64,000 nt of DNA from Phaeacidiphilus oryzae TH49 (lineage in GTDB: Bacteria; Actinomycetota; Actinomycetes; Streptomycetales; Streptomycetaceae): contig NZ_JQMQ01000004.1 in assembly GCF_000744815.1 (NCBI RefSeq), forward strand, positions 620,001 to 684,000. The letters run 5' to 3'. Shown one piece after another: positions 17,839 to 27,713 of this stretch. The stretch's first letter is position 1; each line of letters opens with the position of its first letter. The notes under the pieces were generated by a model. The model worked only from the letters and a program-made list of their open reading frames with translations. It searched no databases and was not told the origin of the DNA. Position numbers and translations under genes: made by a program.

Positions 17839-17925
17839 GCCGGACTCCTCGCTCGGGGGTGCTCGTCGCGGAGCCGCCGTGCGACGGCTCCGCACCCCAC
17901 CGTAGGAGCGGCGGCGTCCATGACG

Positions 17926-17957
17926 CCAACGAAAGTTGGACACATGTGGTATGCGTA
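17926..17957. promoter_or_regulatory. LysR-type intergenic control region, pair 2
   Basis: CCAAC-gaaa-GTTGG (17926-17939) is a perfect short dyad. It is followed by TGGTATGCGTA (17947-17957), the same 11-mer found before the paralogous LysR at 12916, again ending six bases before the ATG. The dyad sits between the divergent SDR and LysR starts. Confidence 0.6.
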
Positions 17958-17963
17958 GACGTC

Positions 17964-18887
17964 ATGGACTTCCGGGACGTCTCCCTCACCGGCCTGCGGG
18001 TCTTCCGCGCGGTGGCCGAACAGGGCACCTTCACCGCGGCGGCGATCGCGCTGGGCTACACCCAGTCCGCGGTGTCCCGGCAGATCGCCGCCGTGGAACG
18101 GGCCGCCGACGCCAGACTGCTGGACCGGCGCCGGGACGGCGTCCAGCTCACCGCCGCGGGCCAGCTGGTCCTCCGCCGTGCCTCGGCGGTGCTGGACGAG
18201 ATCGAGCAGACCGCCCGCGAGCTGTCCGGGATCGAGGACCAGGGCGGCACCGTACGGGTCGGCTGGCCGCCCAGCCTCGGGTCGGTGGTGGTGCCGCGGG
18301 CCATCGTCGCGCTGCGCGCCAGCCATCCCGCGATCACCGTCACCACCCGTGAGGGCGGAACCCCGGCACTGGTCCGGGCGCTGCGGACGGGCAGCGTCGA
18401 CCTGGCGCTGCTCGGCTCCGCCCCGCCGTTCCGGCCGCCGGACTCGGAGTCGCCCCCGCTGGTCACCCAGACGCTGGCCGAGCGCAGCCTCCGGGTGGCG
18501 CTGCCCGCGAGCCATCCGCTGGCCCGCCAGGACTACGTGGACATCGCCGACCTCCACGGGCAGCGCTGGATCGCCGCCCCGCCCTCGGGCGGCGAGCGCC
18601 TGATGGGCGTCTGGCCCGGCCTGGACGAGCGGCCCGAGATCGCCCACACCGCCCGCGACTGGCTGGCCAAGCTGCAACTGGTCGCCGCCGGCTGCGGCCT
18701 GACGACGGTGCCGGCCCCGCTCACCCACGCCGTGCCCGAGGGGGTCCGGATCCGCCCGGTGCGCGGCGGCCCCCAGGAGCAGCGGCGGCTCGTCCTGGCC
18801 CGGCTGCCCGAGCCGCCGCAGGAGGCGGTGGTCCGGGTGGCCGAGGCGCTGCGCGCGGCCGCCCTGGAGGTGGACGCACTGCAGTGA
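17964..18887 (+). CDS. LysR-family transcriptional regulator, paralogue 2
   Basis: A 307-residue LTTR with its helix-turn-helix in GTFTAAAIALGYTQSAVSRQ (about residues 23-42) and a periplasmic-binding-like effector domain. It is paralogous to the regulator at 12933 throughout. No Shine-Dalgarno precedes ATG 17964; the TGGTATGCGTA box six bases upstream suggests leaderless translation. It diverges from the SDR at 16897 and probably regulates it and the genes downstream of it. Confidence 0.93.
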   Translation: MDFRDVSLTGLRVFRAVAEQGTFTAAAIALGYTQSAVSRQIAAVERAADARLLDRRRDGVQLTAAGQLVLRRASAVLDEIEQTARELSGIEDQGGTVRVGWPPSLGSVVVPRAIVALRASHPAITVTTREGGTPALVRALRTGSVDLALLGSAPPFRPPDSESPPLVTQTLAERSLRVALPASHPLARQDYVDIADLHGQRWIAAPPSGGERLMGVWPGLDERPEIAHTARDWLAKLQLVAAGCGLTTVPAPLTHAVPEGVRIRPVRGGPQEQRRLVLARLPEPPQEAVVRVAEALRAAALEVDALQ

Positions 18888-18933: not shown

Positions 18934-19188
18934 TCACTCGAAGACGGTCAGTACCGCGCCCTCGATCTCCACCGCGCGCCCGGGGGCGGTGTTGCTGCGC
19001 AGCGCCTCAAGGCACCGCTGGAAGAGGGCGCATTCGTCGCCGTCCAGCACGGCCGCGGCGAGGTCCAGCAGTTCCTGGACCGCCTCGTCGGTGAGCACCG
19101 CCGGCATCTCGCCGGACAGCAGCAGCACGGACTCGCCGGAGTGGGAGCGCACCACGGCGGTGGTGGGACTTCCCTGGACGATCAGCAC
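18934..19188 (-). CDS. small acidic hypothetical protein
   Basis: An 84-residue protein starting at GTG 19188 behind GAGGGGGA. It reads as a short beta-rich start (VLIVQGSPTTAVVRSHSG), a helical middle rich in Leu, Asp and Glu, and a final strand (AVEIEGAVLTVFE). No family recognised. It lies 208 bp downstream of the XRE regulator on the same strand and may be transcribed with it. It lacks the WRKSSYS pattern of DUF397 partners of XRE proteins and does not resemble a known toxin. Confidence 0.55.
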   Translation of the reverse strand: MLIVQGSPTTAVVRSHSGESVLLLSGEMPAVLTDEAVQELLDLAAAVLDGDECALFQRCLEALRSNTAPGRAVEIEGAVLTVFE

Positions 19189-19396
19189 AGTTCCCCCTCG
19201 GCCCAGAGGAACCGTGTCCCTCACGTACCTCGGACTGCGGGTGACGATAGCCCGGTGTCCCTCGTGCGAGTGACAGGCCGCGAGTACATCCCGCGCGGAA
19301 TCCCCCGTGCGAGTGGAAACCGGCCGAAGCCGCAACCATCGTCCGCTCGGCTGCGTCCCCGGTTCCTCGAATCCGCTCGCCCGCCCCGCCCGGGCG

Positions 19397-19789
19397 TCAG
19401 TCGGCCGCGGGCTCTCCGCCGCCCGCGGAGTCGCCGCGTCGCAGCAGCGAGTCCACCAGGGCGGTGACGTGCCGGCGGTCCTCGGGGGAGAGCCGCTGGA
19501 GGCTGGCGATCAGGGTGTTCACCTCGGGGTCCGCGGGCGGCCCCGCGTCGGCGTAGACCTGGATGCCGCAGGCCTCCGCGGCGGCGCGGCGAACCGTTTC
19601 TGGAGTCAGGCCCAGCCCTTTGGCCAGCCCTTCCAGCGTCGCGGGCTGGGGCATCCGGACCATCCGGTCGGTGGTCGCCAGATGGTGGACCGTCGAGCGC
19701 GGGATCCCGCCCCGGCGGGCCACGTCGCCGTACGACCAGCCGTGCAGCTCCAGCTGCTCCCTGATCAACTGCTGCATGGCGTTGGACAC
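19397..19789 (-). CDS. XRE-type helix-turn-helix regulator, likely controls the peptide cassette
   Basis: A 130-residue protein with a Cro/C1 helix-turn-helix (WSYGDVARRGGIPRSTVHHL, then LEGLAKGLGLTPETV) in the N-terminal half and a helical C-terminus (NTLIASLQRLSPEDRRHVTAL) for dimerisation. GTG 19789 is preferred, with AGGGAG upstream; the internal ATG 19777 has no ribosome binding site. It diverges from the peptide genes across 263 bp that carry two TGTCCAA/TTGGACA-type dyads, and a single TTGGACA half-site overlaps its own start codon (19782-19788). Repression of the peptide promoter plus autoregulation is the simplest reading. Confidence 0.8.
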   Translation of the reverse strand: MSNAMQQLIREQLELHGWSYGDVARRGGIPRSTVHHLATTDRMVRMPQPATLEGLAKGLGLTPETVRRAAAEACGIQVYADAGPPADPEVNTLIASLQRLSPEDRRHVTALVDSLLRRGDSAGGGEPAAD

Positions 19790-19954
19790 GTGACGGATCG
19801 CTCCCTGCCTCGGTCGGCGTCGGCCGGCGCCGGACATCTGTGCTCGGCCGCCGCTCAGTCTAAGAGGATCAGCCCGCTCCGCCGAAGGCAAGGCCGTCCA
19901 CCTGCCCCGCACCGGCGGTTACCCATCCGTTACCAAGCGTTGCCGGGATTCCCC

Positions 19955-19984
19955 TTGCGGAGCCGCTCGCCGTCCGGCTAGTGT
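19955..19984 (+). promoter_or_regulatory. promoter of the peptide cassette
   Basis: TTGCGG (19955-19960) and TAGTGT (19979-19984) are separated by 18 bp, matching the HrdB-type TTGnnn-18-TAGnnT promoter. Transcription would start near 19991, inside the first of two operators. Confidence 0.65.
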
Positions 19985-20022
19985 CCAATCTCGTTGGACA
20001 GAGCGTCCCACTCCGTTGGACG
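19982..20022. promoter_or_regulatory. two tandem 19-bp dyads (operators) before peptide gene 1
   Basis: TGTCCAATCTCGTTGGACA (19982-20000) is a perfect TGTCCAA-N5-TTGGACA dyad overlapping the -10 box. CGTCCCACTCCGTTGGACG (20004-20022) is a second copy with one mismatch. The two centres are 22 bp apart, two helical turns, so two repressor dimers could bind the same face. The adjacent XRE gene is the obvious source of the binder. Confidence 0.7.
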
Positions 20023-20052
20023 CAACCACTCTTCCCTGAAGGGGGAACCACC

Positions 20053-20268
20053 GTGATCGACTTCCGTGAGCTGGATGCCGAGTCCGCCGACCTGCTGCCG
20101 GGCCGCGAGGCGCTGGGGAAGCTGACCTTCACCTTCACCCGGACCACCAACGTGACCAAGCACGTGGCCAACGTCCACGCGCACAACGAGTCGGCCGCGG
20201 TCAACCAGTGGTCGCCCGAGGCGGTCGCCCAGTCCGAGGCCTCCCAGAGCATCTCGATCCACCAGTAG
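20053..20268 (+). CDS. small peptide 1 of a tandem pair, candidate precursor peptide
   Basis: A 71-residue peptide with a charged N-terminal part (DFRELDAESADLLPGREALG), a Thr-rich stretch (TFTFTRTTNVT) and a His/Asn/Gln/Ser-rich C-terminus ending SISIHQ. It has no Cys, no signal peptide and no membrane helix. GTG 20053 follows GAAGGGGGAACC. The N-terminal acidic leader and the low-charge, Asn/Gln-rich tail resemble a leader/core layout. A 61-residue block is identical in the next gene. Neighbouring M50 protease and Tat protein suggest it is processed or exported; the function is unknown. Confidence 0.75.
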   Translation: MIDFRELDAESADLLPGREALGKLTFTFTRTTNVTKHVANVHAHNESAAVNQWSPEAVAQSEASQSISIHQ

Positions 20269-20393
20269 CGGCGAGGCACTGCGGTCGCATCGCTCCTCCC
20301 CACTGACCGCGGGCCGCTCCGCGCTGGACCCCGCAGTTCCACCCATCAGAGTCCCAGAGACCACAGATCAGCAAGCACAGAAAGGCCACCATC

Positions 20394-20612
20394 ATGAGCA
20401 TGGACCCCCGCGAGTTGGATGCCGAGTCCGCCGACCTGCTGCCGGGCCGCGAGGCGCTGGGGAAGCTGACCTTCACCTTCACCCGGACCACCAACGTCAC
20501 CAAGCACGTGGCCAACGTCCACGCCCACAACGAGTCGGCCGCGGTCAACCAGTGGTCGCCGGAGGCGGTCGCCCAGTCCGAGGCCTCGCAGGGCATCAGC
20601 ATCAGCCAGTGA
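20394..20612 (+). CDS. small peptide 2 of a tandem pair, candidate precursor peptide
   Basis: A 72-residue near-copy of peptide 1. The 61 residues from RELDAE to SEASQ are identical, and only the first few residues and the tail differ (GISISQ here, SISIHQ there). Across those 61 codons I count six DNA differences, all synonymous, so the copies are kept by selection rather than merely recent. ATG 20394 has AGAAAGGCC upstream. The 125 bp between the two genes contains no operator; CACTGCGG and CCGCAGT could form a long-range hairpin. It is followed after 82 bp by the M50 protease gene. Confidence 0.75.
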   Translation: MSMDPRELDAESADLLPGREALGKLTFTFTRTTNVTKHVANVHAHNESAAVNQWSPEAVAQSEASQGISISQ

Positions 20613-20694
20613 TCCGAGCACCCGTGCGGCCGGCTTGTCGGTCGTAGGCCGCACGGGTCCCGCGGGGGCGGGGGCGACGAGGGAAGGGCCGGAG

Positions 20695-22698
20695 ATGACT
20701 GCGATCGGGGATCGCGAGAACAGCCGCCATCGGCGGGGGCGCAGGCGCGGCCAGGGCACCGCGCACGCGACCTCCGGGCTGGTCGCGACTCCACCCGTGA
20801 CGTCGGCACCGACTCCACCGCCTCCGGAGCCGCCATGGGACGCGCCTCCCGGCCTCGTCCCCGCTCCCGCCCCTGGCGCCGGCCGTTGGGACGGCGCCAC
20901 CCGAACCGACGTCCACACGGACCCAGGGTCCGAGACGGGTGCTCCGTACCAGGAACCGCGCCCGTGGGGGGTGCCGCGGCTCACGGCAGGGCTGCGGCTG
21001 CACGGCGAGTACCGGGGCTCGGGCTTCACCGAGCCCCGGTACATCGCCCGGCGCGGCGACGGCCAGGTGCTCCAGCTGTCCCGCCTGCTGTACCTGGTCA
21101 CCCGGGCCATCGACGGCCGGCGCGACCTGGAGGGCGTCTCCCACCGGGTCAGCGCCGAGTACGGCCGCGAGCTGAGCACCGAGAACATCGCCTACCTCAT
21201 CGACCGCAAGCTGGAGCCGCTCGGCGTCACGGTGCCGCCCGGGCAGGAGAACGACCAGGTCGACGCCCCGCGCTCGGACCTGCTGCTCGCCCTCCGCTTC
21301 CACAAGGTCCTCTTCCGCGAGTCCGCGGTGGCCCGGATCGCCGGCGCGCTCAGCTGGCTCCACCGGCCGCTGCTGGTCGCCCTCGTCCTGCTGGGCATGG
21401 GCGGCCTGGACGCCTGGCTGTTCGGCAGCTTCGGGGCCATCACGCCGGTGCTTCACACCCTCGACCAGCCGGTGCTGCTCCTCGCCGTCTTCGCGCTGAC
21501 CGTGGCCTCGCTCGTCTTCCACGAGTTCGGCCACGCCTCGGCCTGCCGCTACGGCGGCGCCAGCCCCGGATGCATCGGCTGCGGGATCTTCCTGGTCTGG
21601 CCCTCGCTCTACACCGACGTCACCGACGTCTACCGGATCGGCCGCAGCGGCCGGCTCCGAACCGACCTCGGGGGGGTCTACTTCAACCTGGTCTTCATGC
21701 TCGGCCTGGCCGGGCTGTTCTTCCTGACCGGCCAGCAGTTCCTGCTCGGAGCCGTCTACCTGGGCCACTTCGAAGTGCTCGAACAGCTGATGCCGGCCGT
21801 CCGGCTGGACGGCTACTACATCCTCGGCGACCTCGCCGGGGTTCCCGACCTTTACGGGAAGATCCGCCCCATCCTCCTCAGCGCGCTGCCCGGCCGACCC
21901 ACCCACCCCGAGGTGGCCGGCCTCAAGCGGTCGGCGCGGACCGTGGTCACGGTCTGGGTGCTGACGATGATCCCCCTCCTCCTCGGCGATCTCGGCTACG
22001 CGCTGTGGAACCTGCCGAGGATCGTCACCACCGGCGTGCGCTCGCTCACCGTGCAACTGGTGGGCACCGCCGACGCCTTCGGCTCCGGGCGGATCGCCGA
22101 GGGGCTGCTCGGAGTGGTCGGCAGTGTGATGCTGATCTGCCCACTGCTGGGGATGGGCTACCTCTCCGTGCGGCTGGGAGGCCGGCTGATCCGGGCGGCG
22201 GTCGCCGGCACCCGCGGCAAGCCGGGACTGCGGCTGACGCTCGGCGGGGTCGCGCTGGGGGGCGCGGCCGCGCTCAGCCTGGCCTGGGCGGTCGGCGTCA
22301 CCCCGCGGCCGCTGCCGGAGCAGCCGCCGATCGTCCCGGTGCTCCAGCCAGGGGTGCCGACCACAGCGCCGAGCAGCTCCCCGACGGCGGTGCCCACCCG
22401 TCCGCACACCCGGCGGCCGCACCCGAGCGCCACCGCCCACGCCGGGCCCAGCTCCACCCCGCGCCCCAACCCCTCGGCCACGCACACCTCCAAGGCGTCC
22501 GGTCGCGCCACCTCGGCGGCCTCGGGCACGGCCTCGGCCACCCCGAAGCCGAGCGGGCCGGCCGCCCAGCCGGCGAGCGGGCCCACCCCGTCGGCCTCCC
22601 CGACGCCGATGTCCTCCCCGACTCCGTCGCCGCCGCCCCCCTCGGTGAGCGCCAGCGGTACCGCCACCGCCTTGCCCACGGTCAAACCGACGCCGTGA
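20695..22698 (+). CDS. membrane M50 peptide zinc metalloprotease with PqqD/RRE-like domain and Pro/Thr/Ser-rich tail
   Basis: A 667-residue protein. Residues 1-95 are basic then proline-rich. Residues 118-178 (LQLSRLLYLVTRAIDGRRDL and onward to DRKLEPLGV) look like a PqqD-type winged helix, the fold used as RiPP recognition element to bind leader peptides. The site-2-protease-like core carries HEFGH at 276-280 and the third zinc ligand in RLDGYYILGDLAGVPDL (Asp372), between about six membrane helices. After 540 comes a roughly 125-residue Pro/Thr/Ser/Ala tail, presumably outside the cell. It belongs to the putative peptide zinc metalloprotease group (YydH-like). ATG 20695 follows GAGGGAAGGG. 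The peptides just upstream are the natural substrate candidates. Confidence 0.85.
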   Translation: MTAIGDRENSRHRRGRRRGQGTAHATSGLVATPPVTSAPTPPPPEPPWDAPPGLVPAPAPGAGRWDGATRTDVHTDPGSETGAPYQEPRPWGVPRLTAGLRLHGEYRGSGFTEPRYIARRGDGQVLQLSRLLYLVTRAIDGRRDLEGVSHRVSAEYGRELSTENIAYLIDRKLEPLGVTVPPGQENDQVDAPRSDLLLALRFHKVLFRESAVARIAGALSWLHRPLLVALVLLGMGGLDAWLFGSFGAITPVLHTLDQPVLLLAVFALTVASLVFHEFGHASACRYGGASPGCIGCGIFLVWPSLYTDVTDVYRIGRSGRLRTDLGGVYFNLVFMLGLAGLFFLTGQQFLLGAVYLGHFEVLEQLMPAVRLDGYYILGDLAGVPDLYGKIRPILLSALPGRPTHPEVAGLKRSARTVVTVWVLTMIPLLLGDLGYALWNLPRIVTTGVRSLTVQLVGTADAFGSGRIAEGLLGVVGSVMLICPLLGMGYLSVRLGGRLIRAAVAGTRGKPGLRLTLGGVALGGAAALSLAWAVGVTPRPLPEQPPIVPVLQPGVPTTAPSSSPTAVPTRPHTRRPHPSATAHAGPSSTPRPNPSATHTSKASGRATSAASGTASATPKPSGPAAQPASGPTPSASPTPMSSPTPSPPPPSVSASGTATALPTVKPTP

Positions 22699-22762
22699 AC
22701 CCCGACTTTCCGTCGTCCGCCGACGAGTGTCCGCCGGCGGCCCAGCAGAGGAGCTGCGCACG

Positions 22763-23452
22763 ATGAATCCACACAAACACCGCCGGTACCAGCTGACCGT
22801 GAGCCGCCGAACCGTCCGCTTCGGGCTGCTGGCCACGGCCGGGCTGGCCGCGCTCGCCAGCGCCGCGCCGGCCGCCGAGGCCGCCGAGGGCATCGGCCAC
22901 GACGTCGGGGTGGCCACCGACGACGTGTTCAGCCGCGCCGACGCGGCCCACACGGTGGACGCCACCGACTCCTTCACCGTCCACCAGTTCGGCCCGCTGG
23001 TCGCCGCCCATCTGCACAACGAGGCGGTGGCCGCCTCGGTGGCCTGCCACCCGGACCGGCCCTGCCGCTCGGTGGCGCTGTCCTTCCAGATCGACACCAT
23101 GGCCGGCACCCGGATCCACCTCCAGGCCGACAACACCAGCTCGGCCGAGAACATCCACTGTGCGGGCTGCGAGACCTTCGCCGGGGCCTGGCAGTTCGTG
23201 GTCTCCACCCCGCAGGCCTTCCGGCTCACCCCCGCCGAGCAGGCCCGACTGGGCACCATCCACCGGCAGTTGGACGCCCTCACCCACTCGAAACTGCCCA
23301 CCTCCGAGGTGCGGGCGCAGGCCGACGTGCTGGCGGGCGAGGTCACCACGCTGCTGCAGACCGCCGCCGCCCACGCCCCGCAGGGCCCGGGCACCGACCC
23401 GCTCGGCTCCTTCCGTCCCACCGTCACGGTCCAGCACCACTTCGCCGGCTGA
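22763..23452 (+). CDS. Tat-type secreted protein with a CxxC and a second Cys pair
   Basis: A 229-residue exported protein. The N-terminus has a twin-arginine motif (SRRTVRFG), a hydrophobic run and an Ala-rich cleavage region ending AAEAAEG. The mature part holds four cysteines: ACHPDRPC and HCAGC. ENIHCAGCETFAGAWQFVV is the most distinctive stretch. The C-terminal 80 residues are helical. ATG 22763 has AGAGGAG upstream and lies 64 bp after the M50 gene, so it is probably the last gene of the peptide operon. Tat export implies folding, perhaps metal or disulfide formation, before secretion. No family name can be given. Confidence 0.7.
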   Translation: MNPHKHRRYQLTVSRRTVRFGLLATAGLAALASAAPAAEAAEGIGHDVGVATDDVFSRADAAHTVDATDSFTVHQFGPLVAAHLHNEAVAASVACHPDRPCRSVALSFQIDTMAGTRIHLQADNTSSAENIHCAGCETFAGAWQFVVSTPQAFRLTPAEQARLGTIHRQLDALTHSKLPTSEVRAQADVLAGEVTTLLQTAAAHAPQGPGTDPLGSFRPTVTVQHHFAG

Positions 23453-23482: not shown

Positions 23483-23515
23483 TCGCCGGGCCCGGAGCGC
23501 CGCCGGGCCCGGCGA
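23483..23515. terminator. strong bidirectional terminator
   Basis: TCGCCGGGCCCGG (23483-23495) pairs exactly with CCGGGCCCGGCGA (23503-23515) around a 7-base loop. It separates the end of the peptide cassette from the convergent S53 peptidase gene, so the two are transcriptionally insulated. Confidence 0.85.
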
Positions 23516-23527
23516 GGCGGTGTGCGC

Positions 23528-25576
23528 TCAGCCCGCCTCGCGGCGGAGGCCGGCGAGGAAGGCCGCGCCGTTCGGGGTGCCGACCCCGGTCGTGGTGTCG
23601 TAGCCCCGGACCGTCACCTGCTGGGTGTCCGCCCGGTTCTGGACGTCGAAGACGTCCACGCCGGGGCTGCTCCCCGAGCCGTCGGCGGGGAGGTAGGCGG
23701 CCCGGTCCGCCGCGGGGGTGTGCGGACCGAGCGGCAGGATGTCGTGCAGCGCCCGTGTTCCGGCCAGCCGGTACAGCACCGGGTCGAGGAAGCCGAACGG
23801 CGTCCGCCGGCCCTGCTGCGCGTCCGCGACCAGCCCGGCGACCAGCGGGCAGGCCAGGCTGGTGCCGGCGTTCGGCATGGTCGCGTACGGCCCCGGCCTG
23901 CCGTGGCTCTCGGTGGCGATGTAGCCGGTCAGCAGGCCGGTGTCCAGATCGGCGTCGGCGGCCAGATCGGGCACCGTCCGGCGGAGCACCGTCCGTCCGC
24001 CCACCCGGGCGCGGGCCATGGAGGCGGGGACGACGCCCTTCTGGTAGACGGGCTGCGGATAGCCGGACGCGGCTCCGCCGCCGCTCCCGCTGACCCCCAG
24101 GTCGGACCACCGGCCGGCGTCGAGGGTGGCCGCATCGCTGGACCAGCCGGTCTCGAAGACCCGCCCGCCCGTCCTGGCGAGGCCGAGGCTGGTGCCGCCG
24201 ACGGTCACCGCGTAGGGGTCGGCGGAGGTCGCGGTGATGCCGGGGGTGTCGCCCGAGGCGAAGTACATCCCCACGCCCTCCGCGGCCCCCCGCACGTCGA
24301 GTGCGTGGACGGTCTGTGCCGGCACCGAACCCTCGGGGATCTGCCAGGAGTTCGACTCGATCGAGGCCAGCGGGCGGCGGCCGTCCGCGGTGAGGACGTG
24401 CATCGCCGCGTTGAGCAGCGCCTGGTTCTCGTCGCAGCCGCCTCCGACCACCATCAGCTGCGTGGCGCCCGGGGCCATCGCGTACACGGCCTCGGAGTCC
24501 ATCTCCGCCTCGTCCTCGTAGGCGGCGGTCCGGGCCGAGCGCGCGGAGGGGGTGGCGCACGCCCCGGCCTGGACGATCCTCAGCTGGGCGGGGTTCGGCC
24601 TGGGCAGGTGGTTGCGGGCGGCGTACTCGGTCAGGGTCCGGAACATCGCGGTGGGGGTCTCGTCCTCGATCAGCGCGACGGTCTGGCCCCGGCCGGTGTC
24701 CGTCCGGGTGGCACCGTAGGCGGCGCGGATCTGTGCGGCGGAGTACCCGCAGATCGGCAGGGAGGCCTCGGCCAGCCCCCGGTAGCGCGGACGGACGGCA
24801 TGCCGGTACCGGCCCCAATAGGGGGAGCAGGCGGGCGACTTGGCGGTGTGCGCGGCGCGGACGGCCGGGGCCGGGGCGTGCGGGGCCGCCGCGCGAGAGA
24901 CCGCCGCGCGGGGCATCGCCGCTTTCGGGACGCCCGCCGGGACGCTGCCGAGGCCGGTCACGCCGATCACGTCCGGCAGCAGCCCCGTCGGCAGCGAGAC
25001 CTCGCGGTCGTTGGCGGACACCGTCCGGGACCCGCCGTCGGCGCCGCTGATCCGGTACCGGTCGATCCGCACCCGCAGGGCGGCCTCCACCGTCGCCACC
25101 GGGCCGGTCGCCGACACGTAGTCACGGCCCGGGTCGGTGCGCACCTGGGTGAGACCGCTGTGCCGCAGCCAGTCGGCGACCGCCGCGGCCCGGGCCAGGG
25201 AGGGGCCGAACCGCGCGGTGTAGGCGGCGGGGCTGAGGTAGCGGTGGAAGGCCGGGGTCCCCGGGGTGGCCGCGGCGGTGGCGAAGGCCTCCGCGCCGGC
25301 CAGGTCCGGCCGCAGCCACACCTGGAAGGTCATCGGCCGGTCGGCCGGGGCGGCGCCGGTGACCGTCGCGGCGGCGGACCGCACGGCGGGGGAGACGCTG
25401 CCGGGCAGCGGAGTCGTCCCCGGGGCGGTCGCCGTTTTCCCAGCGGCCCCGGAGACCCCCGTCAGACCCAGCGCCAGCGCGAAGACCCCGCAGCAGGCCA
25501 GCACGGTGTCGCGAGCGCGACCCCGATCCCTCTTCGCCGACTTCCCCGACTTTCTCGACTTCCTCGACGCGATCAC
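23528..25576 (-). CDS. secreted S53 (sedolisin/kumamolisin-type) serine-carboxyl peptidase
   Basis: A 682-residue preproprotein. A basic N-terminus and a hydrophobic segment (VLACCGVFALALGLTGVSG) form the signal. An inhibitory prodomain follows (AFHRYLSPAAYTARFGPS). In the catalytic domain, Glu356 and Asp360 lie in EDEAEMDSEAVY, and the nucleophile is Ser573 in AGTSLACP. The C-terminal DTTTGVGTPNG matches the calcium site of sedolisins. These acid-active proteases digest extracellular protein and self-activate by removing the prodomain. GTG 25576 has GGGGAG seven bases upstream. It faces the peptide cassette but is separated by a terminator. Confidence 0.9.
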   Translation of the reverse strand: MIASRKSRKSGKSAKRDRGRARDTVLACCGVFALALGLTGVSGAAGKTATAPGTTPLPGSVSPAVRSAAATVTGAAPADRPMTFQVWLRPDLAGAEAFATAAATPGTPAFHRYLSPAAYTARFGPSLARAAAVADWLRHSGLTQVRTDPGRDYVSATGPVATVEAALRVRIDRYRISGADGGSRTVSANDREVSLPTGLLPDVIGVTGLGSVPAGVPKAAMPRAAVSRAAAPHAPAPAVRAAHTAKSPACSPYWGRYRHAVRPRYRGLAEASLPICGYSAAQIRAAYGATRTDTGRGQTVALIEDETPTAMFRTLTEYAARNHLPRPNPAQLRIVQAGACATPSARSARTAAYEDEAEMDSEAVYAMAPGATQLMVVGGGCDENQALLNAAMHVLTADGRRPLASIESNSWQIPEGSVPAQTVHALDVRGAAEGVGMYFASGDTPGITATSADPYAVTVGGTSLGLARTGGRVFETGWSSDAATLDAGRWSDLGVSGSGGGAASGYPQPVYQKGVVPASMARARVGGRTVLRRTVPDLAADADLDTGLLTGYIATESHGRPGPYATMPNAGTSLACPLVAGLVADAQQGRRTPFGFLDPVLYRLAGTRALHDILPLGPHTPAADRAAYLPADGSGSSPGVDVFDVQNRADTQQVTVRGYDTTTGVGTPNGAAFLAGLRREAG

Positions 25577-25741
25577 GCGACCACTCCCCGTCCGGTAAGG
25601 CGTCCGCCGACACTTCCCCCACATCGGCCGAGCGCCATCATGCCGTCCGGTCCCCGCGTCGCCGGGGGCGACACGAGGGTTTTCTCCCCGGCTGGAATGA
25701 TGGCCGAAAGCGCCGGTGGGGCGCGTGCGGCGGAGGAACGC

Positions 25742-27144: not shown

Positions 27145-27175
27145 AGGCCACACCTCGCATCCTCGTCGTCCGGTT

Positions 27176-27218
27176 GATGACCCGGAGATTTGTCATCGGT
27201 TCGACGACATGCTACAAC
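27176..27218 (+). promoter_or_regulatory. hsp20 promoter with overlapping dyad
   Basis: TTGTCA (27190-27195) and TACAAC (27213-27218) are separated by 17 bp and form a good promoter. The -35 is buried in the right arm of an inverted repeat, GATGAC (27176-27181) with GTCATC (27192-27197). A repressor there would block RNA polymerase; the divergent regulator is the candidate. Confidence 0.65.
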
Positions 27219-27272
27219 AGCAGCAGACAGCAGCGCATGAGCAGCCACCTGAACAAGAGGAGGTGTTCGACC

Positions 27273-27713
27273 ATGCTGATGCGCACCGACCCCTTCCGCG
27301 AGTTCGACCGCCTGACCCAGCAGTTGCTGGGCGGCCCCTCCGGCACCTGGTCCCGGCCGACGGCGATGCCGCTGGACGCGTGGCGCGAGAAGGACGAGTA
27401 CGTCATCGCCTGCGACATCCCGGGGGTGGACCCCGAGGCGATCGACATCGACGTCGAACGCAACATGCTCACCGTCAAGGCCGAGCGCCGGCCGACCGCC
27501 AGGAGCGACGAGGCGCAGCCGGAACTCTCCGAGCGGCCACTGGGCGTCTTCTCCCGCCAGATCATGCTGGCCGACACCCTCGACACCGAGCGCATCAGTG
27601 CCGACTACCACGCCGGCGTCCTCACGCTGCGGATCCCCATCGCCGAGCGGGCCAAGCCGCGCAAGATCTCCATCAACGCCGGGGAGACCGGCCGCCGGGA
27701 GATCACCGGCTAG
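27273..27713 (+). CDS. hsp20: Hsp20/alpha-crystallin small heat-shock protein
   Basis: A 146-residue small heat-shock chaperone. The alpha-crystallin domain runs from about residue 38 to 135 with EKDEYVIACDIPGVDPEAI, NMLTVKAERR and the terminal ADYHAGVLTLRIPIAE, including the A-x-x-x-x-G-V-L-T-L strand. The C-terminal ISI (KISINAGE) is the I-x-I motif used in oligomer assembly. It holds unfolding proteins in the cytoplasm without ATP. ATG 27273 follows AAGAGGAGG. It is regulated by the divergent gene through the dyad at 27176. Confidence 0.95.
   Translation: MLMRTDPFREFDRLTQQLLGGPSGTWSRPTAMPLDAWREKDEYVIACDIPGVDPEAIDIDVERNMLTVKAERRPTARSDEAQPELSERPLGVFSRQIMLADTLDTERISADYHAGVLTLRIPIAERAKPRKISINAGETGRREITG

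Follow-up and report, generated by a model that had tools for sequence, protein, structure and literature searches.

A conserved gene cassette is carried by the 64,000-nucleotide stretch of Phaeacidiphilus oryzae TH49 analysed here (the window, G000:C4:620001-684000, within a high-GC genome of 7.8 Mb). It is built around two nearly identical small peptides, A and B (93% DNA identity over 211 nt), a membrane protease of the M50 type and an exported protein, referred to below as the partner. The cassette is real and conserved, and both the unit and the type of protease are well supported. We lean towards reading the unit as a leader-dependent processing and surface-delivery system that operates without modification of its peptides. 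At its left end, on the minus strand, are a small conserved protein (P5) and an XRE-type regulator; two dyads mark the promoter region that comes next, and peptide A, peptide B, the protease and the partner then lie in this order on the plus strand, ahead of a 13-bp inverted repeat (Table 1). An earlier note on this DNA had described five of these genes (regulator, both peptides, protease and exported protein), and all five were recovered at or near the same positions. Its interpretation stands in part; it had missed P5, the division of the peptides into leader and core, the homology of the partner to a domain fused to related proteases, and the spread of the system through the phylum.

That the genes form one conserved unit, as had been claimed, is borne out by two collections. 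Peptide B found relatives in 45 of 297 genomes of the family, in 7 of 17 genera and mostly as tandem pairs, and the profile of the exported protein found the identical 45, all of which also encode the protease. The protease profile added six genomes (G012, G020, G067, G131, G141 and G241) that have a distant M50 protein only (E 1e-107 to 1e-118); in G067 and G141 this distant protease accompanies different cargo with leaders of the LLPERAVL or VLPERTVM type. The second collection comprised the best 80 of 470 relatives, named loci from Streptomyces, Streptacidiphilus, Kitasatospora, Actinacidiphila, Peterkaempfera and Actinospica among others, and some of its genomes overlap with the family search. 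In 51 of the 80 the unit is complete and in order, with P5 first, then XRE, the two peptides, the protease and the exported protein. A lack of conserved order in other genomes, which the earlier note had named as refuting its view, is not what was seen: tblastn placed a peptide upstream of the protease in 79, and at the remaining locus, L093, the contig starts within the peptide core. The exported protein is present in 70 loci, where its gene starts 189-1447 bases (median 682) past the matched part of the protease. The remaining ten contigs stop 2-673 bases past that same point, so the ten partners are probably missing because the contig stops short. At one locus (L081, genome G182) the protease and exported-protein matches are split between reading frames, possibly through decay or sequencing error.

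Rough gene clustering of the 80 named loci, with up to 8 kb of flank, recovered the protease in 80, the peptide in 70, XRE in 69, the exported protein in 59 and P5 in 56. Beyond these five unit genes no cluster occurs in more than 25 loci; the less frequent clusters include a syntenic block whose ABC ATPase, found in 25 loci, lies on the opposite strand at a distance of 3 kb. In these flanks neither a modification enzyme nor a transporter recurs with the unit, in agreement with the earlier note, which had seen no modification enzymes. For P5, Pfam and NCBIfam returned no family above cut-off and PHROGs one family of unknown function (E 0.048); apart from that weak match, PHROGs and PADLOC matched XRE only.

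The protease is predicted to be a RiPP recognition element (RRE) domain fused to a site-2 protease (S2P), as in the daptide protease MpaP. The AlphaFold model, built on 58 aligned sequences (mean predicted local distance difference test score, pLDDT, 87.6), has three strands and three helices at the N-terminus, then membrane helices. In VIA-align this N-terminal part matched the leader-bound lasso-peptide RRE of TbiB1 (Z 8.5, root-mean-square deviation 2.9, 84 residues aligned), the MccB RRE (Z 7.1) and heterocyclase RREs (Z 7.0). The membrane part matched RseP (Z 9.3), SpoIVFB (Z 8.8) and mjS2P (Z 8.2), and the zinc ligands H187, E188 and H191 (HExxH) and D283 (LDG) are invariant in 58 of 58 aligned sequences. 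The zinc ligands of a site-2 protease are in place, and the predicted structure has both its core fold and an RRE-like fold; the RRE proposed in the earlier note is supported by structure prediction and not by Pfam. Sequence libraries recognise the protein poorly. Pfam M50 matched 10 of 21 members of the protease group (best E 0.0016), the window protein not among them. The best NCBIfam match of the window protease is NF041824 (MpaP), with 77.3 bits over residues 115-386, far below the cut-off of 300, and NF058609 (YydH/LiaK/EpeP) gave 36.1 bits (cut-off 225). Sequence searches of the PDB with the peptide, protease and partner alignments stayed at chance level, the protease profile reaching mjS2P at no better than E 1.7. 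The protease also occurs in two plasmid copies, which bear the annotation 'hypothetical protein'. By the positive-inside rule, as read from the window sequence and from the tails of distant proteases, the C-terminal tail probably lies outside the cell.

The peptides divide into a leader and a core. In 54 aligned precursors, chosen from 86 peptide open reading frames plus the window pair, the leader motif LLPxREAL is invariant and Q72 at the C-terminus nearly so. Across 65 loci, the window and 64 of the named 80, which together supplied 130 peptides, entropy is 0 at positions 44, 46, 48, 52, 55, 60, 66, 68 and 72. Conserved core positions alternate (44, 46, 48, 50, 52), shift at a turn near S55 and alternate again (60, 62, 64, 66, 68, 70, 72); the intervening variable residues (43 to 71) have entropies of at least 1.7 bits, with position 58 in the turn region intermediate (0.9). 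Such a pattern suggests a strand, a turn and a second strand, one face of the unit being buried and the other exposed, as they would be in a stacked beta-arch. The core is rich in Ala, Ser and Asn and mildly hydrophilic (mean grand average of hydropathy, GRAVY, -0.29). A single Cys is found in 19 of 65 A peptides, in several of them at the turn, and in 1 of 65 B peptides; it may form an inter-subunit disulfide. The ratio of non-synonymous to synonymous change (dN/dS) of the window peptides is not informative (median dN 0.29, dS 0.45). Copying of A from B within each genome was considered and rejected: identity is 0.81 within loci and 0.69 between loci, but just 5 of the 65 A peptides have the B of their own locus as nearest neighbour.

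Two further observations concern leader and core separately. On the minus strand at L069 (same contig as L166) lies a second protease paralogue, 56% identical to that of the window, and beside it the identical leader stands on an unrelated core of His/Asp/Gly/Arg repeats, perhaps metal-binding; this was seen on that one contig. At L089 and L090, Gly/Tyr/Arg-rich proteins without a leader have last ~46 residues that resemble the peptide core, making them possible surface users of it.

The partner has no Pfam family above cut-off. Its AlphaFold model reaches a pLDDT of at least 90 for 156 residues, mostly within 48-203, and consists of six long strands followed by a helical hairpin. The second hairpin of the partner aligns without gaps to the peptide core (hhalign E 2.2e-4 for this one comparison). 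The core alone scored 27.3 against the partner, the best of 400 column shuffles reaching 17.4, and the leader gave no alignment (score 11.2). In 16 of 40 distant loci the protease itself carries a fused C-terminal domain with CxxC motifs. The partner matches these fused tails with a score of 100.9 (134 columns, probability 98%, E 1.1e-13), whereas 100 shuffles reached 26.0 at most; by this homology the window's exported protein is an outer domain of the same protease in detached form. The earlier note had called the partner a Tat (twin-arginine translocation) protein. The window protein does carry a Tat-like SRRTVRFG; as a feature of the family, Tat export was rejected, since an anchored count of Arg-Arg pairs before the hydrophobic stretch in 70 homologues found none in 40, a Tat-like one in 23 and another in 7.

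The system extends well beyond the close relatives. In a sample of the class, the protease was found in 58 of 394 genomes, and 40 of 57 distant matches were read, one of which (L201) is cut by a contig end, leaving 39 loci. An open reading frame with a ribosome site and the leader pattern, which was tuned on these same 39 loci, lies upstream of the distant M50 gene in 34; as controls, the opposite strand gave 2 of 39 and the downstream side 0 of 27. By eye a leader can also be read at L209, L213, L219 and L220, and not at L224. Three types of cargo were seen. The first consists of three tandem peptides with ELPDREQMS-type leaders that share the core motif of the twin peptides; the second is a single protein of 219-502 residues with an ALPDKEVVS-type leader and two tandem core-like domains; the third comprises longer Asn/Ser/Pro-rich proteins with LLPERMTL-type leaders. 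Against the two domains of the long cargo the peptide core scored 24.7 and 25.3 (maximum of 200 shuffles, made for the 24.7 comparison, 20.2).

In a sample of the phylum, the protease was found in 25 of 396 genomes. From 29 loci, six in genomes already seen and one broken fragment were removed, leaving 22 held-out loci from 19 new genomes, and reading of the upstream frames by eye recognised precursors in 18 and none in L251, L254, L255 and L263. Three loci (L261, L266 and L269) have ELPGRDLL- or QLPTRRL-type leaders on short, hydrophobic, Gly-rich cores, a separate class of cargo. Five loci from the two samples (L246, L248, L256, L259 and L204) have an extra small frame upstream of the precursors, ~1.0-1.4 kb from the matched part of the protease, with a basic start, an N-x-A-x-x-x-N ... 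Q-x-V-x-Q-like pattern and no leader.

For the processing and delivery of the peptides we infer the following order of events. In the cytosol the RRE domain of the protease would bind the leader of the precursor, the site-2 protease would make its cut behind the leader, in the membrane or next to it, and the core would be released outward. The core may fold as a beta-arch whose inner side is a conserved ladder of Ala, Asn, Ser, Gln and Ile and whose outer side varies, and in such an arrangement copies A and B would be expected to stack. The partner, which combines the core motif with two Cys pairs, would most likely receive, anchor or nucleate the emerging cores at the cell surface. Among the options that the earlier note had left open for the peptides, 'surface or amyloid-like' fits best. 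More tentatively, we suggest a phylum-wide actinobacterial export-and-assembly pathway, in which an RRE-guided site-2 protease gates leader-tagged beta-arch proteins and so builds surface fibres nucleated by a disulfide-stapled outer domain; this wider proposal we hold to be possible rather than probable.

A number of results weigh against a surface-delivery system of this kind. On the side of the protease, the window protein has no Pfam family above cut-off and no PqqD match. In VIA-align a domain of a methyltransferase leads the matches of its N-terminus (Z 9.4), and the DNA-binding winged helices of response regulators and Fur also score about 5-7; because winged-helix domains match in general, the fold alone is no proof of an RRE. 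Plain Foldseek E-values are weak (SpoIVFB 0.39, TbiB1 0.51). For the peptides, nothing in Pfam exceeds the cut-off and Curlin gives no match at E up to 1. Concerning the partner, the probability that hhalign itself assigns to the match with the core is 45%, the two halves of the protein match each other weakly (15.2), so that the idea of two motif copies rests on reading by eye, and the peptide core is dissimilar to the fused protease tails (score 13.9). Structure comparisons of the partner are also weak (at best E 0.37 in Foldseek, for FapC, and Z 3.1 in VIA-align, where the CsgA fibril has Z 3.0); we did not use the FapC and CsgA matches as evidence, nor do they show a new fold. Loci with LLPERMTL-type cargo have no detectable partner. 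The fixed leader pattern found 6 of the 22 held-out phylum loci, with 2 of 22 on the opposite strand. Finally, no export channel was identified for the released cores.

The fusion of the partner homologue to the C-terminus of the protease can also be read as a sign that both forms are a regulatory outer domain of the protease, as the PDZ domains of RseP are, and that the cargo may then be a soluble surface or matrix protein. We regard this as rather unlikely: regulation alone leaves the core motif shared by the partner unexplained, and in Streptomycetaceae the partner is a separate exported protein. It is unlikely, too, that the unit makes an unmodified secreted antimicrobial, with the cores as two-peptide bacteriocins and immunity conferred by the partner or P5. 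Two tandem peptides, the highly variable outer face of the core, an RRE-M50 protease as in daptides and an M50 protease as in epipeptides would suit such a product. However, no exporter gene recurs, the ABC ATPase seen in 25 loci being part of the shared syntenic block, and the core is mildly hydrophilic; the 219-502-residue two-domain cargo and the protease-fused partner found elsewhere suit assembly better than immunity.

The control region of the operon bears on a further alternative. Both dyads read in the earlier note, GTCCAATCTCGTTGGAC and CGTCC-N9-GGACG, are present. The pattern GTCCAA-N5-TTGGAC occurs once in the 7.8 Mb genome (reversed-pattern control 0) and also in 61 of the 80 named loci; in many of the listed homologues CTAGTGTCC or CTACTGTCC adjoins the dyad, and in many a second dyad of similar kind is visible. 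The claim of a strong promoter gained no support from a sigma-70 scan, which found none; the pair TTGCGG-18-TAGTGT, which overlaps the first dyad, is a sequence reading only. The proposed terminator kept its 13-bp stem, with no U-tract and no entry in the list of the terminator scan, and the 96-nt stretch around the inverted repeat folds better than shuffles by no more than z = -1.47. The regulator is divergent, as described earlier, though its start at 19912 proved over-long; since most homologues have a GTG start at the residue matching 19789, that start is probable. The palindrome over the promoter is most simply read as the probable site of repression of the operon by the XRE protein.

A divergent XRE gene with a unique palindrome at the promoter could also belong to a signalling system, another option of the earlier note, in which an M50 protease of the Eep type would release a pheromone sensed by the neighbouring regulator. 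We rejected this reading as very unlikely. The XRE protein (~130 aa) has helix-turn-helix (HTH) Pfam matches only and none to the TPR-type sensor of RRNPP/Rgg regulators, the cores are long and strand-like, distant cargo runs to several hundred residues (up to 502), and signalling leaves no role for the fused outer domain. Least plausible of all is a ribosomally synthesised and post-translationally modified peptide (RiPP) whose modifying enzymes are encoded elsewhere in the genome. Leader, core and RRE do make up RiPP anatomy, yet no gene for such an enzyme recurs in the flanks and Cys is rare in the peptides.

Among known systems, the modification-free surface-delivery unit proposed here comes closest to daptides. 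MpaP is described as an RRE fused N-terminally to an intramembrane site-2 protease, with several precursor genes per cluster (PMC10036551), and the unit shares both the fusion, as predicted here, and the multiple precursors. Unlike daptides, it has LLPxREAL instead of ELExMEAP in the leader and Gln instead of an invariant Thr at the C-terminus (PMC10036551). Oxidoreductase, aminotransferase (a pyridoxal phosphate enzyme), methyltransferase and ABC genes do not recur with it, an exported partner protein is present, and the NF041824 score is far too low. A daptide assignment was rejected on leader motif, C-terminus, accessory genes and NF041824 score together. Epipeptide clusters likewise employ a peptide-maturing M50 protease (YydH/LiaK/EpeP), and EpeP is thought to cleave and export its peptide (PMC10885120); unlike them, the window protease falls well below the family cut-off and no radical SAM gene recurs. 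Neither the daptide nor the epipeptide definition of a cluster fits the locus, which agrees with the earlier view that it belongs to no standard RiPP class. RseP, SpoIVFB and mjS2P resemble the protease in the fold of the membrane part and in the zinc ligands, and differ in that the window protein has an N-terminal RRE-like domain and dedicated, leader-bearing cargo. In curli, the major and minor subunits CsgA and CsgB share an alternating strand motif with Asn/Gln/Ser/Ala ladders. The likeness to the present unit, known here from sequence and predicted structure, is an analogy only; unlike curli, the unit has no Pfam Curlin match, a different export route and one motif per peptide in this genome.

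The architecture of the protease is already known. Cargo without modification, combined with beta-arch cores and an outer partner, did not show up in the open papers searched, and may be in print elsewhere. In the open literature (subscription journals and supplements lay outside the search) we found no published description of the unit, of its leader strings or of a link between RREs and amyloid, and a term search of the main text of PMC12710340, a paper on RREs, did not return 'M50'. Among RRE-S2P systems we class the unit as a variant that does without modification.

Genome searches for modified natural products make use of RRE domains and leader peptides. The unit described here is widespread and follows the same logic of recognition; its cargo looks structural, and no modifying enzyme recurs with it. 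If the proposed delivery system is correct, it would represent a new use of RREs and give a role to proteins that no library searched has named. Whether a site-2 protease can serve as an export gate could then be tested directly, and users of RRE-based mining would have to reckon with hits at loci that yield no RiPP. The wider phylum-level pathway, if it exists, would show RRE/leader pairs directing structural proteins and not only natural products, and would be an actinobacterial counterpart of curli-type nucleation, the assembled product being a candidate for a sheath, matrix or adhesion structure.

Table 1. Positions in the window of the genes and sequence elements of the unit
Feature	Position	Strand	Remarks
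P5, small conserved protein	18934..19320	-	adjoins XRE gene; start uncertain; homology over about residues 30-127
XRE-type regulator, 130 aa	19397..19789	-	probable GTG start 19789; HTH_31 and HTH_3 above cut-off
Candidate promoter TTGCGG-18-TAGTGT	19955..19984	+	sequence reading only
Palindromic operator candidate GTCCAATCTCGTTGGAC	19983..19999	.	overlaps readable -10
Second dyad CGTCC-N9-GGACG	20004..20022	.	read from sequence
Peptide A precursor, 71 aa	20053..20268	+	leader (LLPxREAL) and beta-arch-like core
Peptide B precursor, 72 aa	20394..20612	+	layout as in A
Predicted RRE-site-2 protease (M50), 667 aa	20695..22698	+	Pro/Ser/Thr-rich C-terminal tail
RRE-like domain of protease	20962..21252	+	model residues 1-97
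HEFGH zinc-binding motif of protease	21520..21534	+	third ligand candidate D283 in RLDGY (model numbering)
Exported partner protein, 229 aa	22763..23452	+	signal peptide, six long strands, helical hairpin, two Cys pairs
13-bp inverted repeat, 7-nt loop, possible terminator	23483..23515	+	arms 23483-23495 and 23503-23515

Several neighbouring genes were also noted. The convergent downstream gene at 23531-25603 (minus strand) has a pro-kumamolisin activation domain (Pfam E 9e-24), probably encodes a secreted S53-type protease and lies outside the recurring unit. A LysR regulator (17859-18887, plus strand; Pfam E 2.1e-31 and 1.3e-19) stands beside P5, and a small heat-shock protein of the Hsp20 family is encoded at 27174-27713 on the plus strand (Pfam E 2.2e-20).

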